64,000 nt of DNA from Nocardiopsis xinjiangensis YIM 90004 (GTDB taxonomy: Bacteria > Actinomycetota > Actinomycetes > Streptosporangiales > Streptosporangiaceae), in assembly GCF_000341145.1 (NCBI RefSeq), contig NZ_ANBE01000031.1, positions 65,425-129,424 of the forward strand, read 5' to 3'. Shown here one piece after another: positions 1-28,957 of this stretch. The notes under the pieces were generated by a model that saw only the letters and a list, made by a program, of their open reading frames with translations, was not told where the DNA came from and did not search any database. A program made the translations under genes and the position numbers. Within the stretch, counting starts at the first letter, position 1, and every line of letters starts with the position of its first letter.

Positions 1-9
1 GTCGCGCTC

Positions 10-25
10 CGGCCCGATCGGGCCG
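10..25 (-). terminator. Hairpin downstream of chaplin 1
   Basis: A perfect 6-bp GC stem (CGGCCC/GGGCCG) with a GATC loop lies 12 bases past the stop codon of the first chaplin gene. There is no clear U-run, as is common for actinobacterial terminators. Function is inferred from position only. Confidence 0.45.
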
Positions 26-36
26 CGGCCGAGGTG

Positions 37-279
37 TTACTTGTCCTTGACGGTCGCACCCGAGTCCACGCAGTTGGCGCCGGAGACGCCCAGGATCGCG
101 ATGGAGTTGCCGCAGACGTTGACCGGCACGTCCAGGTCGGCCACGAGCTGGTTGCCGGAGAGGACAGCGCCGTTGCCGGAGGTCGCGACGTCATCGGCGG
201 CCATGGCGGGAGCACCGGCGAACAGCACACCACCGGCGGCGGCAACGATGGCACTGGCAGCGAAAGCCTTCTTCAGCAT
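37..279 (-). CDS. Short chaplin, copy 1
   Basis: An 80-residue secreted chaplin, a small hydrophobic protein that in actinomycetes assembles into amyloid films on aerial hyphae and spores. A Sec signal peptide (residues 1-27, ending AMA before ADD) is followed by one chaplin domain beginning TSGNG, with SGNQ, two cysteines near 56 and 70, and the GANC-VDSGA ending. There is no sorting signal, so it should be a released short chaplin. The MLKKAF start is preceded by AGGAG; a longer in-frame ORF upstream has no such site. It is about 90% identical to two following copies, and its promoter carries the motif shared by all three. Confidence 0.93.
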   Translation of the reverse strand: MLKKAFAASAIVAAAGGVLFAGAPAMAADDVATSGNGAVLSGNQLVADLDVPVNVCGNSIAILGVSGANCVDSGATVKDK

Positions 280-342
280 GTATGTCTCCTGAATTCCCGG
301 CCGATGTGGGGCCGACCGGATGTTGACTATGTGTCGTAAGTC

Positions 343-375
343 GAGCACGCACAGTGCTCTTGTTCCATTCAGCCA
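343..375 (-). promoter_or_regulatory. Chaplin promoter inverted repeat plus TGGCTGAAT box, copy 1
   Basis: The 17-bp inverted repeat GAGCAC-N5-GTGCTC sits at 343-359, 63 bases upstream of the chaplin start. On the minus strand TGGCTGAAT (367-375) precedes it by 7 bases. The same arrangement recurs before the other two short chaplins. The remainder of the gap 280-655 shows no gene. Confidence 0.7.
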
Positions 376-655
376 CAACTGGTGTCTGCTCGTGACCGGA
401 ATCGCGGAACGTTTCTCAGCTGTGACCTGCTCAGATCGCGGAGAGTGTCGATTCATGTCGGAATTGTCGCCCTTTCCCAGTCCTTGATTTCGGACACAGG
501 AGGACAGGACTCCGACCCGACCGAAGGCACCCGACGCACAACAGAGGCGCCACCCCGCCATCACGGAATGACGCCCGTCTCACGCTCCTGGCACGGCCGC
601 CCGCCGGGGCCCCTCGGGGCGGACCGGCCGGACCCGAGCGTGCAAGCTCACGGCA

Positions 656-898
656 TTACCAGTCCTTGACGGTGGCGCCGGAGTCGACGCAGTTGGCGCC
701 GGAGACACCCAGGATCGCGATGGAGTTGCCGCAGACGTTGATGGGCGCGTCCACGTCGGCCACGAGCTGGTTGCCGGAGAGGATGCTGCCGTTGCCGGAA
801 GTCGCGACGTCATCGGCGGCCATGGCGGGAGCACCGGCGAACAGCACACCACCGGCGGCGGCAACGATGGCACTGGCAGCGAAAGCCTTCTTCAGCAT
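656..898 (-). CDS. Short chaplin, copy 2
   Basis: An 80-residue secreted short chaplin, nearly identical to its neighbours over the signal peptide (residues 1-27) and over the cysteine-bearing half of the mature domain. It differs mainly by SILS for AVLS, ADVDAPIN for ADLDVPVN, and a terminal W. Two cysteines are spaced as in typical chaplins. It begins at the MLKKAF codon behind GTAGGAG; a longer in-frame extension is unlikely. The gene is on the same strand as the other two copies but far enough away to have its own promoter, which carries the shared inverted repeat. Confidence 0.93.
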   Translation of the reverse strand: MLKKAFAASAIVAAAGGVLFAGAPAMAADDVATSGNGSILSGNQLVADVDAPINVCGNSIAILGVSGANCVDSGATVKDW

Positions 899-964
899 GT
901 TTTCTCCTACGGACCGGCCCCCGAGGGAACCAAACATCCGGAAATCGACGATTTGTATGACTGT

Positions 965-997
965 GAACACTCCCCGTGTTCAGAGACTATTGAGCCA
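965..997 (-). promoter_or_regulatory. Chaplin promoter inverted repeat plus TGGCTCAAT box, copy 2
   Basis: GAACAC-N5-GTGTTC is at 965-981, 66 bases upstream of the second chaplin. The box TGGCTCAAT (989-997, minus strand) lies 7 bases further upstream. Position and spacing match copies 1 and 3. The rest of 899-1177 has nothing else recognisable. Confidence 0.72.
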
Positions 998-1177
998 CAT
1001 ACACCGACCTCGCGGGGGCCGATTCCGAGAATTTTCTCCGACCGCGACCTGGAAGTATGACCTAACGTGACATCCCATGTCGGACATGGTGGAGCGAAGG
1101 GGAAACAAATCAGTGCCCATGTGTGCCATAGGTCACATGCTTCACAGGGCACGCAAGTACCCCAGGAACGACGAAAC

Positions 1178-1201
1178 GCCGCCCCACCGGAGCGGGGCGG
1201 C
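1178..1201 (-). terminator. Hairpin downstream of chaplin 3
   Basis: A perfect 8-bp stem (GCCGCCCC/GGGGCGGC) with an 8-base loop lies 27 bases after the stop codon of the third chaplin. On the minus strand it is followed by GTTTCG. It would end that transcript before chaplin 2. Confidence 0.65.
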
Positions 1202-1228
1202 GCTCACGCAGAACCAGACAGGCGGCTC

Positions 1229-1468
1229 CTAGTCGACGACCGTGGCGCCGGAGTCGACGCAGTTGGCGCCGGAGGCACCGAGGAGGGCGATGGAGTTGCC
1301 GCAGACGTTGATGGGCGCGTCCACGTCGGCCACGAGCTGGTTGCCGGAGAGGATGCTGCCGTTGCCGGAGGTCACGACGTCATCGGCGGCCATGGCGGGA
1401 GCACCGGCGAACAGCACACCACCGGCGGCGGCAACGATGGCGCTGGCAGCGAAAGCCTTCTTCAGCAT
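1229..1468 (-). CDS. Short chaplin, copy 3
   Basis: A 79-residue secreted short chaplin: signal peptide to about residue 27, then one chaplin domain with both cysteines (GANC and VCGN contexts). It differs from copy 2 by VVTSGNG, ALLGASG and a shortened VVD end. AGGAG lies 7 bases before the ATG. It has its own promoter motif and a downstream hairpin, so it is likely monocistronic. Three such copies in 1.5 kb indicate recent tandem duplication. Confidence 0.93.
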   Translation of the reverse strand: MLKKAFAASAIVAAAGGVLFAGAPAMAADDVVTSGNGSILSGNQLVADVDAPINVCGNSIALLGASGANCVDSGATVVD

Positions 1469-1529
1469 GTATGTCTCCTGAATGCCGGGGCTCGAGGCAC
1501 CGACGGTTGCTTACTTTTTGCAGCAATGA

Positions 1530-1561
1530 GAACACTCTTTGTGTTCGCTGTTATTCAGCCA
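1530..1561 (-). promoter_or_regulatory. Chaplin promoter inverted repeat plus TGGCTGAAT box, copy 3
   Basis: GAACAC-N5-GTGTTC is at 1530-1546, 61 bases upstream of the third chaplin. TGGCTGAAT (1553-1561, minus strand) lies 6 bases beyond it. The N5 spacer sequences differ between the three copies while the arms are kept, which argues for a binding site rather than mere duplication. Confidence 0.72.
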
Positions 1562-1621
1562 TATCCGTTCGCATGTGCGTCGATCGCCGTCGGCGTGTCG
1601 CGGGACTGCTGTCCGAAAACC

Positions 1622-3226
1622 TCAGGAGCCGCGGAGGTCGTCCCGCTCACGGGTCAGCGTGGCCCGGGTCGCCCAACGTTCTGTACCCGCCTCGGTGCCC
1701 CGCGCGCGACGTCCGTGCCCCGCGAGCGCGTCGAGGAGGGAGCGGGCATGGCCCGGTTCCACCCCCTGAGCGCGGCCTTCGGCAGGGCCGGGCGGGGTGT
1801 CCGCACCGACCGTCAAGCGCCCCGTGAGCCGGGACCACGGCCCCTCGGCCAGACGCAGTGCCTGCACCCGCTCCACGGGAACCACGTCGGTGGTCCGGCA
1901 GAAGATTCCGCGGGTGGTCACGAACAGGTACTCGTCGGCCCCGACATCGCTGTGACGCATACCGCCGCCGGAGGCCAACGGCACGGACACCGCGTCACTA
2001 CCCGGGAAGACCTCGTTGACCAGGGCGAACGCGCGGTGCCGGGGGGCCACCGGGAGCAAGGTCGCCGAGTCGCCCTGGCGGGCGCCCGCGTACCCGGCGA
2101 CGTTGGCCTCGACGCGGGCCACCCCGAGGGCCCTCCACAGGAGCGGTTCCACCACGCGCACTGCCTGGACCCGGCCGGGCGGAACGGTCTGCATCCGGCG
2201 CTGGAACATGCCGTAGCGCAGTCGGAGCCCGTCACCTGAGGTCGAGGCGTAGAAATCGGTGTAGCGGGTGAGCGGGCCCCAGAAGTGCCGCAGCAGACCG
2301 AGCACGAGTGGGACGACCGCACCGAAGACCCCCGGTTCCCCGAAGACCACACCCGCCGTCAACAGCATCAGCAGTGCCACGAAGGCCAACAGGACCGGGA
2401 CACGGAACAGCAGCGCACCCAGCAGCAACGGGAACGGCAGGCGGTAGAAGGGCCACTCGGGGGCCTCGGGGGCACGCCCGGGCAGACCGGCGGCGTGCGC
2501 CAGTACAGCGACGCGCATGCGTTCGGCGAGTTCGTGGCGCAGGCACGGGAGGCGGACGACGCTGCCGTCGCCCCCGGCCAGTTCCACCCGTAGTTCGGCC
2601 AGGCCGAAGACCTGCATGAGCAACGGGCGCACCACGTCGACCGCCTGGAGCCGGCTCAACGGGATCTCACGGGAGCCGCGCAGGAGGAGTCCGCTGTGCA
2701 CCACGAGGTGGTCCTCGCGCAGCCCGAACGTGGCGTACCACCACGCGGGCAGGCAGTAGGCGAGCGTTCCGAAGAGCACCGCGACCGTCATCATGAGGAC
2801 CCAGTCGAACCCGAACTGGCCCAGGATCGGCCCCGCGAGCGCGGCGAACACCAACGTGACGGCGACGACCTGGAACAGGATGATGATCCAGTGGGCGCGG
2901 AAGACCCCCGTGGTCACGTCCCCCAAGGGCCTGGGCGGCGGGGCGGCGTACCACTGGCCTTGTGGGGCGGGCGGCCCGGTCGGCGGCGGGGCCCACTGAG
3001 GCGCGGGCCCGCTGGACGAGAGGGACGGACCTTGCGGGTACTGGGGGTACTGGGGCCCCGGTGTGCCCTGCGGATGGTGCGGCCCCTGCGGCGGGTACAC
3101 CCACCCTTCCGGCGGTGATCCTGGCGGTGGTCCGCCGCCGGGCGGGACCCATCCCCCGTTCTGCGGGGGCCTCTGCCCGTACCCGCGGTCTGCGTCACCG
3201 TCTTCCGGCTGTGCTGGTCCGTGCAC
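1622..3226 (-). CDS. PH-domain membrane protein (YdbT-like)
   Basis: A 534-residue membrane protein of the bacterial PH-like (bPH_2, formerly DUF304) family, function unknown. The first ~90 residues are rich in Pro, Gly and Gln. Pairs of membrane segments follow near 110-165 and 270-320. Three PH-like modules are visible, each with a short strand pattern and an arginine-valine repeat (LSRLQAVDV, PGRVQAVRV, VERVQALRL). It starts with GTG directly after the TAG stop of the smaller PH-domain gene. That pairing mirrors ydbS-ydbT of Bacillus, whose products have been linked to defence against class IIa-like peptides; the link here is by homology only. Confidence 0.8.
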   Translation of the reverse strand: MHGPAQPEDGDADRGYGQRPPQNGGWVPPGGGPPPGSPPEGWVYPPQGPHHPQGTPGPQYPQYPQGPSLSSSGPAPQWAPPPTGPPAPQGQWYAAPPPRPLGDVTTGVFRAHWIIILFQVVAVTLVFAALAGPILGQFGFDWVLMMTVAVLFGTLAYCLPAWWYATFGLREDHLVVHSGLLLRGSREIPLSRLQAVDVVRPLLMQVFGLAELRVELAGGDGSVVRLPCLRHELAERMRVAVLAHAAGLPGRAPEAPEWPFYRLPFPLLLGALLFRVPVLLAFVALLMLLTAGVVFGEPGVFGAVVPLVLGLLRHFWGPLTRYTDFYASTSGDGLRLRYGMFQRRMQTVPPGRVQAVRVVEPLLWRALGVARVEANVAGYAGARQGDSATLLPVAPRHRAFALVNEVFPGSDAVSVPLASGGGMRHSDVGADEYLFVTTRGIFCRTTDVVPVERVQALRLAEGPWSRLTGRLTVGADTPPGPAEGRAQGVEPGHARSLLDALAGHGRRARGTEAGTERWATRATLTRERDDLRGS

Positions 3227-26738: not shown

Positions 26739-27983
26739 TTACAGGCCCAGGCCCACAGCGCCCAGCACGTCGTCGACCGGGCTGCCCAGGCCGCTCTCGG
26801 GAGCCTCGGGCAGCAGCCCTGCGGGCTCCTCGGCGGGAGCCTCTTCCGCGGGAGCCTCCGGAGCCGGGGCCTCCTCGGCCGGGGCTTCGGGGGCCGGGTC
26901 CATCGGAGCTTCCTCCGCGGGAGCCTCCGGGGCCGGGGCCTCCTCAGCGATGACGTCCCCGACGGGAGCGTCCTCGGCCGGGGCTTCCTCGGCGGAGGCC
27001 TCCATGGCGCTCTGCTCCGCGGTCTCCTGCAGGTCGTAGGCCACAGGAAGCTGGTCGGAGACCGGAACCTCGGGCAGCTTCTCCACGACCGGCAGGCTCT
27101 CCAGCGCGGTCTGCTGCTCGGGAGCGCTCTGGTGCTCGACCGCGGCCCCGGTGTCGGTCGCGTTCGCGCCCGCCACACCCAGCACGCCGATCCCGTTTCC
27201 GGTGACGTTGACCGGAACGTCCAGGTCGCCCACCAGCTGGTTGCCGCCCAGCAGCGAACCGTTGCCGGAGGAGCGCACGTCCTGGTGGTGATCCTCGACC
27301 GCGGCCCCGGTACCCGTGGCGTTGGCGCCCGCGGCACCCAGGACCCCGACAGCGTTGCCGGCCAGGTTCACCGGCACGTCGCCGTCGATCACGGCCTGGT
27401 TGCCACCCAGCAGCGAACCGTTGCCGGAGGTGGCGATGGAACCGTGGTCGTGGCCCCGGGGGGCCGACTGGCGCAGCACGCCGGCGTCCACCCCGGAGGT
27501 GTCCGCGGCCGGCAGGAGCTGCGCGTTCTCGGCGGCCTCACTGAGCACGTCCGTGGCCGTGACGTCGCTCGGCGCGGACTGGTGCTCGACCGCGGCCCCG
27601 GAATCCGTGGCGTTGGCGCCCGCGGCACCCAGGACCCCGACAGCGTTACCGGCGGCGTTCACCGGCACGTCGCCGTCGATCACGGCCTGGTTGCCACCCA
27701 GCAGCGAACCGTTGCCGGAGGAGCGCACGTCGTTGTCGCCGTGGTCCTCGACCGCGGCCCCGGTGCCCGTGGCGTTGGCCCCGGAGACACCCAGAGCACT
27801 GATCGCGTTGCCGGACAGGTTCACCGGCACGTCGGCGTTGGCCACGGCCTGGTTGCCTCCGAGCACAGAACCGTTGCCGGAGGTCTCGGCACCACTGTCG
27901 GCGAAGGCGACCCCGCTGCCCAGGGCGACGAAACCCGCTGCGAGGAGCAGCGACTTGGCGGATGTGCTGGCCCACTGACGCAT
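26739..27983 (-). CDS. Four-domain, cysteine-free chaplin protein
   Basis: A 414-residue exported protein: signal peptide (1-28), four chaplin-like domains (about 35-79, 88-133, 185-229, 238-283), then an acidic Ala/Glu/Pro-rich repeat region (about 310-400). Each domain keeps SSGNGS-LGGNQ and the GAN-TGAAVE ending, but both cysteines of classical chaplins are replaced (Ser, Ala or Thr in the first, Ala in the second). There is no LPXTG-like signal or C-terminal membrane helix, so it should be released or held non-covalently. ATG at MRQWAST behind AAAGGA. A surface amyloid role is inferred from the family. Confidence 0.88.
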   Translation of the reverse strand: MRQWASTSAKSLLLAAGFVALGSGVAFADSGAETSGNGSVLGGNQAVANADVPVNLSGNAISALGVSGANATGTGAAVEDHGDNDVRSSGNGSLLGGNQAVIDGDVPVNAAGNAVGVLGAAGANATDSGAAVEHQSAPSDVTATDVLSEAAENAQLLPAADTSGVDAGVLRQSAPRGHDHGSIATSGNGSLLGGNQAVIDGDVPVNLAGNAVGVLGAAGANATGTGAAVEDHHQDVRSSGNGSLLGGNQLVGDLDVPVNVTGNGIGVLGVAGANATDTGAAVEHQSAPEQQTALESLPVVEKLPEVPVSDQLPVAYDLQETAEQSAMEASAEEAPAEDAPVGDVIAEEAPAPEAPAEEAPMDPAPEAPAEEAPAPEAPAEEAPAEEPAGLLPEAPESGLGSPVDDVLGAVGLGL

Positions 27984-28324: not shown

Positions 28325-28957
28325 TCAGGCTCCGGCGCGGCGACGCAGACCGAAGACCAAGCCGGCGCCGACAGCCAGCGCACCCACGGCGGCGGCGATC
28401 AGACCGACCAGGGGACCGCGCTCGGTGCCGGTTTCGGCCAGGTCGGCCGTGACCGGGGAGGGCTCGCTCGGAGCGGAGATCTCGTCGGGGACGTGGCCCG
28501 GCTCCTCGCCCTGGTCGTCCGGCTTCTGCGCCCCCGGCTCCTCGGGCTCGCCCGGGTGCTCCGGGACCTCGGGCTCACCCGGCTCCTCGGGCTCCTCGGG
28601 CTTCTCGGGCTTCTCGGGGTAGCCGGGCTCCTCCGGCTCACCCGGCTCCTCGGGCTCCTTCGGCTCCTCGGGTTCCTTCGGCTCCTCCGGCTCACCCGGG
28701 TGCTCGGGCTCCTTCGGCTCCTTCGGCTCCTCGACGGAGGCTCCGGAGTCGGTGCACTGGGCACCGGCCACACCGAGCAGGCCGACGGCGTTGCCGCAGA
28801 GGTTGATCGGCGCGTCGACGTCGGCGCCCAGCTGGTTGCCACCGCCGATCGATCCGTTTCCACTGGTGGCGGTGTCGGCGAAGGCAGCGCCCCCGGAGGT
28901 CATCAGGAAGCCGGCGGCCACCAGGGCGGCGATCCGGGCGTGGGTTTCATGGGTCAT
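28325..28957 (-). CDS. Sortase-anchored single-domain chaplin
   Basis: A 210-residue surface protein: signal peptide (1-27), one chaplin domain (about 31-75) with both cysteines (C54, C68), a Glu/Pro/Gly/Lys stalk of about 80 residues, then LAETG at 173-177, a membrane helix (182-204) and a basic tail RRR. LAXTG is the signal read by actinobacterial class E sortases, so the protein should be linked to peptidoglycan with the chaplin domain held out on the stalk. AAGGA lies 7 bases before the ATG. A strong terminator follows. Confidence 0.92.
   Translation of the reverse strand: MTHETHARIAALVAAGFLMTSGGAAFADTATSGNGSIGGGNQLGADVDAPINLCGNAVGLLGVAGAQCTDSGASVEEPKEPKEPEHPGEPEEPKEPEEPKEPEEPGEPEEPGYPEKPEKPEEPEEPGEPEVPEHPGEPEEPGAQKPDDQGEEPGHVPDEISAPSEPSPVTADLAETGTERGPLVGLIAAAVGALAVGAGLVFGLRRRAGA

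Follow-up and report, generated by a model that had tools for sequence, protein, structure and literature searches.

A promoter module composed of an upstream box, an inverted repeat and a -10-like block was identified in front of all three tandem short chaplin genes of the window, by which the complete 64,000-nucleotide stretch of Nocardiopsis xinjiangensis YIM 90004 DNA is meant. The analyses confirmed that this chaplin promoter module is real, lineage-wide and, in Nocardiopsis, highly specific. Judged from the sequences compared, the repeat is rather likely to be the operator of a dimeric, sequence-specific DNA-binding protein in the short-chaplin promoter, with an activator favoured. Chaplins are small water-repellent coat proteins of filamentous bacteria and, to our knowledge, most of what is known about their control comes from Streptomyces, in which sigma-BldN drives it. 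The module provides a test of whether evolution has rewired the control of coat proteins, and a promoter layout found in 14 genera and based on one near-unique Nocardiopsis operator would be a direct bait for the coat switch of another lineage. No description of this module was found in the titles and abstract openings of the open-licence PMC literature searched.

The three chaplin genes are located on the minus strand and comprise 80, 80 and 79 codons (copy 1, 40..279; copy 2, 659..898; copy 3, 1232..1468). All three proteins scored above the cut-off of 21 bits for Pfam ChpA-C (PF03777) with 31.3, 30.4 and 28.5 bits, respectively, and their best matches were Nocardiopsis proteins, with a maximum of 92% identity in N. 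kunsanensis. The inverted repeat reads GAGCAC-N5-GTGCTC in copy 1 (343..359) and GAACAC-N5-GTGTTC in copies 2 (965..981) and 3 (1530..1546), and is positioned 63, 66 and 61 nt 5′ of the respective chaplin start. The box, which has the form TGGCT[GC]AAT in the window and TGGCTNNAT across genera, is found 7, 7 and 6 bases further upstream (TGGCTGAAT at 367..375, TGGCTCAAT at 989..997 and TGGCTGAAT at 1553..1561). All of these elements are on the minus strand, and the positions and the spacings of 61-66 nt and 6-7 bases given in the preliminary description for the repeat and box before each tandem chaplin were thereby confirmed. Profile R1, a sequence-only profile of box, repeat and -10-like block, matched the complete modules on the minus strand at 313..377 (E 2.6e-11), 935..999 (E 8.0e-13) and 1500..1563 (E 1.6e-8), all three being training rows that match by construction. 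The weakest module is that of copy 3, in which the -10-like block is poorly kept.

The motif had also been reported as missing in front of the two other chaplin genes at 28-29 kb, and this held, as the closest match within 160 bases upstream of either gene had 5 of the 12 arm bases wrong. One of these genes codes for a long chaplin whose C-terminus carries an LAETG-like sorting signal (28325-28957, minus strand) and the other, beside it, for a multi-repeat chaplin-like protein with its frame ending upstream at 27983. The absence of the motif, as the single line of evidence, supports the suggestion that the 28-kb chaplins may be under different control from the tandem trio. A fourth chaplin-like paralogue, of the NxGCGN type and likewise without the repeat, starts about 390 bases past the left end of the window (L206, minus strand). 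Paralogues of this type are neighbours of the short chaplin at many Nocardiopsis loci.

A genome-wide search showed that the motif is not scattered. In the 5,330,432 bases of the host genome (5.33 Mb in 90 contigs), the exact pattern GARCAC-N5-GTGYTC is present in four copies, three of which precede the tandem chaplins, while the remaining one lies inside the hisH coding region. At a uniform genomic rate, three matches in three 200-base upstream stretches correspond to p ~3e-12. When two mismatches were allowed, 13 matches were obtained in the window versus 12.0 expected by chance, so that only the exact sites carry signal. R1 at E 0.01, run on the host genome with stricter filters by which weak matches are lost, returned only the three chaplin sites. 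Thus, hisH was the only further target added by the exact pattern, and none was added by R1 at this threshold. Nine stray exact repeats were found elsewhere in other Nocardiopsis genomes, and at the three that were opened (L034, L035 and L046) no chaplin was present, the L034 site lying outside any long open frame.

As the coding sequences of the three genes hardly differ from one another, it had to be excluded that the likeness stems from a recent duplication or conversion event. Such an event did take place, as the coding regions indicate; however, when the three window copies were aligned on the repeat, the arms were 83-100% identical as compared to 20-40% for the spacers and 25-52% for the flanks, and the motif is retained in 14 genera. 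The view that the repeat is a remnant of recent gene duplication is contradicted by the diverged flanks and by this retention, and was assigned practically no probability.

Since some arm bases were preset in the pattern searches, arm conservation was argued instead from 18 loci which had been gathered via protein similarity without any selection on DNA. The exact palindrome was present in 17 of these loci, and the 18th was one base off (left arm GGACAC). Column identity amounted to 99.5% in the arms, 98% in the box, 89% in the TACNCATNGTCAA block, 69% in the spacer and 72% in the 100 bases upstream; dyad-symmetric arms around a free spacer are what is expected of an operator. Of 40 Nocardiopsis genomes, 39 contain GAACAC-N5-GTGTTC and none contains the reversed control; the remaining genome, G020, carries GGACAC-N5-GTGTCC in place of the former. 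With 13 more genera added by the searches described below, the motif proved to be kept upstream of orthologous chaplins.

The repeat lies 40-90 nt upstream of 62 of the 87 distinct short [MVL]-[LM]KK genes in the loci fetched. Of the 25 genes without it, 20 are the neighbouring NxGCGN-type chaplin-like paralogue of Nocardiopsis and at least three are true short chaplins (the second genes of L136, L246 and L247); in G048 the repeat does precede the NxGCGN-type paralogue. At the paralogue position in G057 and G127 (L092, L093), the protein encoded behind the module is small and secreted; its signal peptide is of the chaplin type, but its mature part is not chaplin-like in appearance. In G015 (L245, C11:32882-32942), a left-over promoter resembling window copy 3 was found with the right arm GCGTTC, an eroded following block and no chaplin at the expected place.

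For the analysis of other genera, the box was initially searched with GGCTNAAT patterns, the narrowness of which caused genera to be undercounted; these patterns were widened and finally replaced by R1. The repeat combined with the box TGGCTNNATRG was present in 53 of the 345 genomes of the order, representing 11 of 70 genera (control, 0). R1 at E 0.01 matched 70 of the 345 genomes, namely 40 Nocardiopsis genomes, 17 genomes of 13 other genera in which a short chaplin or chaplin-like gene is located 40-90 nt after the repeat, and 13 genomes with weak matches. All 13 of the last group were opened and no recognised chaplin was found behind any site. Seven of the 13 weak matches share nothing, except that G064 and G070 have one common context without a recognised gene, and a second weak match in G030 consists of half a repeat only. 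The out-of-family matches in G398 and G562 were likewise without a recognised chaplin. In a class-wide sample at E 0.001, R1 matched 21 of 394 genomes, all of them in the same family except for the weak G562, and no genome of family f20 was matched in this sample; a class draw of the same size contained 39 genomes of genus g79 (probably Streptomyces). In five upstream regions of chaplins from this genus, the best match had 4-5 of the 12 arm bases wrong. Chaplin domains as such are widespread, being present in 54 of the 65 genomes of the family that were tried, and the short chaplins in L099, L105, L118 and L115 have no repeat upstream. A different, MtrA-site-like element, GGTARCTGAATAGCTACC, was observed before the short chaplins of L099 (genus g18) and L118 (genus g38).

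Outside Nocardiopsis, like repeats were also found to precede two further gene families. The members of the first family are secreted proteins of about 120 aa that carry the motif LPNANVPNFQRR and have no Pfam match; the repeat is located 99-114 nt before the gene in G266, G185 and G680 (two genera), and the copies of G266 and G680 are 58% identical. These loci (L250 and L252 in genus g18, L249 in genus g24) were among the opened weak R1 matches, and an asymmetric site of the A.C kind is present there (G680, L249). The second family, likewise met behind three of the 13 weak matches, comprises proteins of about 300 aa (PTEYR..., with C-terminal GKAEG repeats) that are 39-43% identical between genomes. 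Here, the repeat lies 4 nt before the first start in G199 and G075, and a third member was found in G066; at the loci concerned (L261 and L263 in genus g18, L259 in genus g16), it is 2-5 nt from the first possible start. The box was not seen at the sites of either family. Some genomes should contain a 12-base palindrome by chance, but it is unlikely that chance placed one in front of three members of the same family in both cases, and an operator could be used before several gene families in this manner. Chaplin-only use holds for Nocardiopsis and does not necessarily extend to the whole family.

The spacing within the module is fixed to within one base in alignment A3 (34 rows), where the sole gap is a single base between box and repeat, giving 6 or 7 bases, and where no gap occurs between the repeat and the -10-like block; a longer gap between box and repeat was found in G081. 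The distance from the repeat to the start codon is variable and ranges from 58 to 73 nt. The block TACNCATNGTCAA starts 7 bases past the repeat and contains CATNGT, which may be read as the -10 element. If so, the repeat would span about -40 to -24 relative to the predicted transcription start site, the place of a -35 element, and no -35 consensus was seen around the repeat when A3 was inspected by eye. A dimeric activator is favoured because of this conditional position and the lack of a visible -35 consensus, and the regulator is probably an activator bound at the -35 place. Each arm would represent one half-site, 11 bp apart from centre to centre, and the TGGCTNNAT box, which lies on the same face at an upstream distance of two helical turns (about 20 bp), might offer a second contact for the regulator or for a partner. 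In the simplest mechanism, a class-II-type activator of this kind would substitute for the -35 element and could turn the chaplins on at the start of aerial growth.

The main rival is a repressor bound to the same operator, which would cover the core promoter and keep the chaplins off during vegetative growth. With CATNGT as -10 element the repeat would overlap the core promoter, a usual place for a repressor. However, once the repeat is set aside no -35 consensus is left for RNA polymerase, as judged by eye, and a near-fixed upstream box would be more usual for activation. Repression was weighted as unlikely. No regulator gene was recognised among the neighbour clusters common to at least 3 of 11 loci of 10-20 kb, the ORFs of which had been picked by GC3 and length and clustered by blastp, a procedure that short or GC-poor genes may escape. 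The shared clusters look like housekeeping and chaplin genes; hpt, ftsH, fol, panC, nadB and lysS were named from their translations, and bPH_2 alone was checked against Pfam.

The changes within the arms are informative about the nature of the repeat. Both arms of copy 1 had been described as changed with the symmetry kept, and paired changes recur elsewhere (G048, g12, G020). The pair GAGCAC/GTGCTC arose three times independently: once in the lineage to which window copy 1, L013 and L014 belong, once in genus g12 and once before the second gene of G048. GGACAC/GTGTCC appeared independently in G020 and G048. In A3, the rows of which were chosen by a pattern fixing four of the six arm pairs, two pairs vary, always to a standard pair, and the other four never vary; standard pairs are formed in 204 of 204 cells. 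As would be expected of an operator, symmetry was kept when the arms changed, with both-sides changes in 7 cells, whereas shuffling gave 1.2 on average and did not reach 7 in any of 500 rounds, while the count of pairs changed on both sides (2 versus 0.9 shuffled) and that of further pair types were not exceptional, 70 of 500 shuffles being as high in each case.

Symmetry was observed in 57 of the 62 chaplin sites, two arm positions being free in that search. The asymmetric chaplin sites always have G in the distal arm with T in the proximal arm and never A with C. These represent five independent cases (L013/G024, G080, G119, G057 with G127, and G081), and a bias of five out of five has a one-sided p of ~0.03 under equivalent half-sites. 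This is more than expected of equivalent half-sites and counts against a simple symmetric operator. Tolerance of G-U in RNA, unequal half-sites or a proximal half-site that is held harder would also give this bias, the last possibly because the proximal half-site overlaps the core promoter.

It was also weighed whether the repeat acts at the RNA level, as a hairpin within an extended leader whose promoter would lie further upstream. The G.T-only asymmetries of the chaplin sites are of the kind tolerated as G-U, and the exclusively standard pairs of A3, albeit in rows picked with four of six pairs fixed, are compatible with it. Moreover, a covarying hairpin is present further down the leader. 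In 12 Nocardiopsis loci the 5′ leader has a 12-bp hairpin immediately before the ribosome-binding site (alignment A5; L016 2944-3000 and eleven loci), with both-sides changes in 8 cells versus 2.3 shuffled (0 of 500 as high), although its 2 pairs with a both-sides change versus 1.5 shuffled are not exceptional. Against a hairpin formed by the repeat itself stand its fixed or nearly fixed spacing to the -10-like block and the box in the presence of a variable distance to the start codon, the invariance of four arm pairs and the A.C asymmetry of the non-chaplin site in G680. In addition, a pairing of the box predicted in Nocardiopsis fails in several other genera, as seen by eye, and no Rfam match came near its gathering score, since the two matches in window positions 1-1800 reached 19.7 bits versus 69 and 16.9 bits versus 42. 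An RNA hairpin was rated as distinctly improbable, below repression. Similar-looking hairpins before the ribosome-binding site were noticed by eye in the Streptomyces-type short chaplins L143-L145.

The sites of known regulators were compared with 21 promoters (three from the window and the 18 loci) against mononucleotide-shuffled sequence. The LexA box, GAAC-N4-GTTC, is alike in its outer GAAC and GTTC ends, but these are 9 bases apart here, and with 2.43 mismatches versus 2.46 in shuffled sequence the box was not recovered in the 21 promoters. The AdpA site, TGGCSNGWWY, is a degenerate consensus and gave 1.29 versus 1.53 mismatches; the upstream box was not its best match in the five promoters printed. 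An unusual sigma-factor promoter, of the ECF type as for BldN and with incidental symmetry, was also considered, as the CGTC of the downstream block is reminiscent of the -10 elements of ECF promoters in general. Additionally, BldN is reported to activate the chaplin genes of Streptomyces venezuelae (PMC4125116, PMC4255298), and the sigma-BldN consensus is given as CGTAAC-N16-CGTTGA (PMC2375139). Streptomyces sigma-BldN promoters likewise drive chaplins, yet in the promoters studied here this consensus did not rise above shuffled background, with mean mismatches of 5.00, 4.57 and 4.33 for spacers N15 to N17 versus 4.63, 4.68 and 4.59 after shuffling. Furthermore, dyad symmetry is not required for recognition by a sigma factor, but the arms change together. 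Such a promoter was regarded as very improbable.

The BldM group I operator, TCACcCgnncGgGTGA, and the BldM-WhiI group II operator, TGnnCCGnnCGGGTGA (PMC4125116), are sites of developmental regulators as well. The group I palindrome has CAC...GTG inner ends like those of the repeat, but its inner spacing is 8 versus 5 here and the flanks differ; it was not enriched in the 21 promoters, with 5.52 mismatches of 14 versus 5.54 shuffled. The group II operator was slightly closer (3.43 mismatches of 12 versus 4.00 shuffled), the match not being the repeat itself. A review names Nocardiopsis and Thermobifida among the genera without WhiG and WhiI and reports that both N. dassonvillei and T. fusca have genes of the chaplin-like type (PMC4255298). 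In Streptomyces coelicolor, loss of MtrA is reported to lower all eight chaplin genes, and its site is given as (G/T)T(G/A)ACC-N5-GT(G/T)AC (PMC5650626). MtrA sites are direct repeats, whereas the site here is an inverted repeat, and the 21 promoters had 3.05 mismatches versus 2.96 shuffled. Box and spacer together match the MtrA site at 8 of 11 positions in L016 and L025.

A second palindrome which, like the leader hairpin, is missing from the preliminary description was detected further upstream. It reads CATGTC-C-GACATG (1076..1088, minus strand), lies 78 bp upstream of box 2 and is the sole exact copy in the genome. A decayed form, CAATTCCGACATG (454..466, minus strand), occupies the same position before copy 1. 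Window copy 2 looks like the original gene, because the second palindrome is exact there and decayed before copy 1. Among 65 promoter rows spanning all genera and copies, CATGTC-S-GACATG was exact in 35 rows at 77-78 bp upstream of the box and had one mismatch in four more; locus L016 (2806-2818), among others, has it at this fixed distance. The exact form was present at the chaplin locus in 35 of the 40 Nocardiopsis genomes, the places being read by eye, and somewhere in 36 of the 40, some of which have one or two extra copies (control, 0-2 per genome). In Nocardiopsis, the centres of the second palindrome and the repeat are 108-109 bp apart.

Two candidate causes of the fixed 78-bp spacing were rejected. 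At least three of the 18 loci (L021, L022 and L028) have lost the first ATG of a conceivable mini-ORF, which was dismissed for this reason. The end of the bPH_2 gene was dismissed as well, as the stop codon of this gene, in the single-chaplin Nocardiopsis loci read, is placed some 150-160 bases 5′ of the repeat, outside the second palindrome. With regard to the regulator, it is conceivable, though on balance doubtful, that the short chaplins of Nocardiopsis and Thermobifida are controlled by a regulator or regulator pair unlike the Streptomyces BldN/BldM/WhiI circuit, nearly single-target in Nocardiopsis and forming a rigid complex on the two palindromes. If true, this would be a developmental switch for the same kind of coat protein that was built independently of Streptomyces. 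Half-like sequences near the place of the second palindrome were noticed by eye in other genera.
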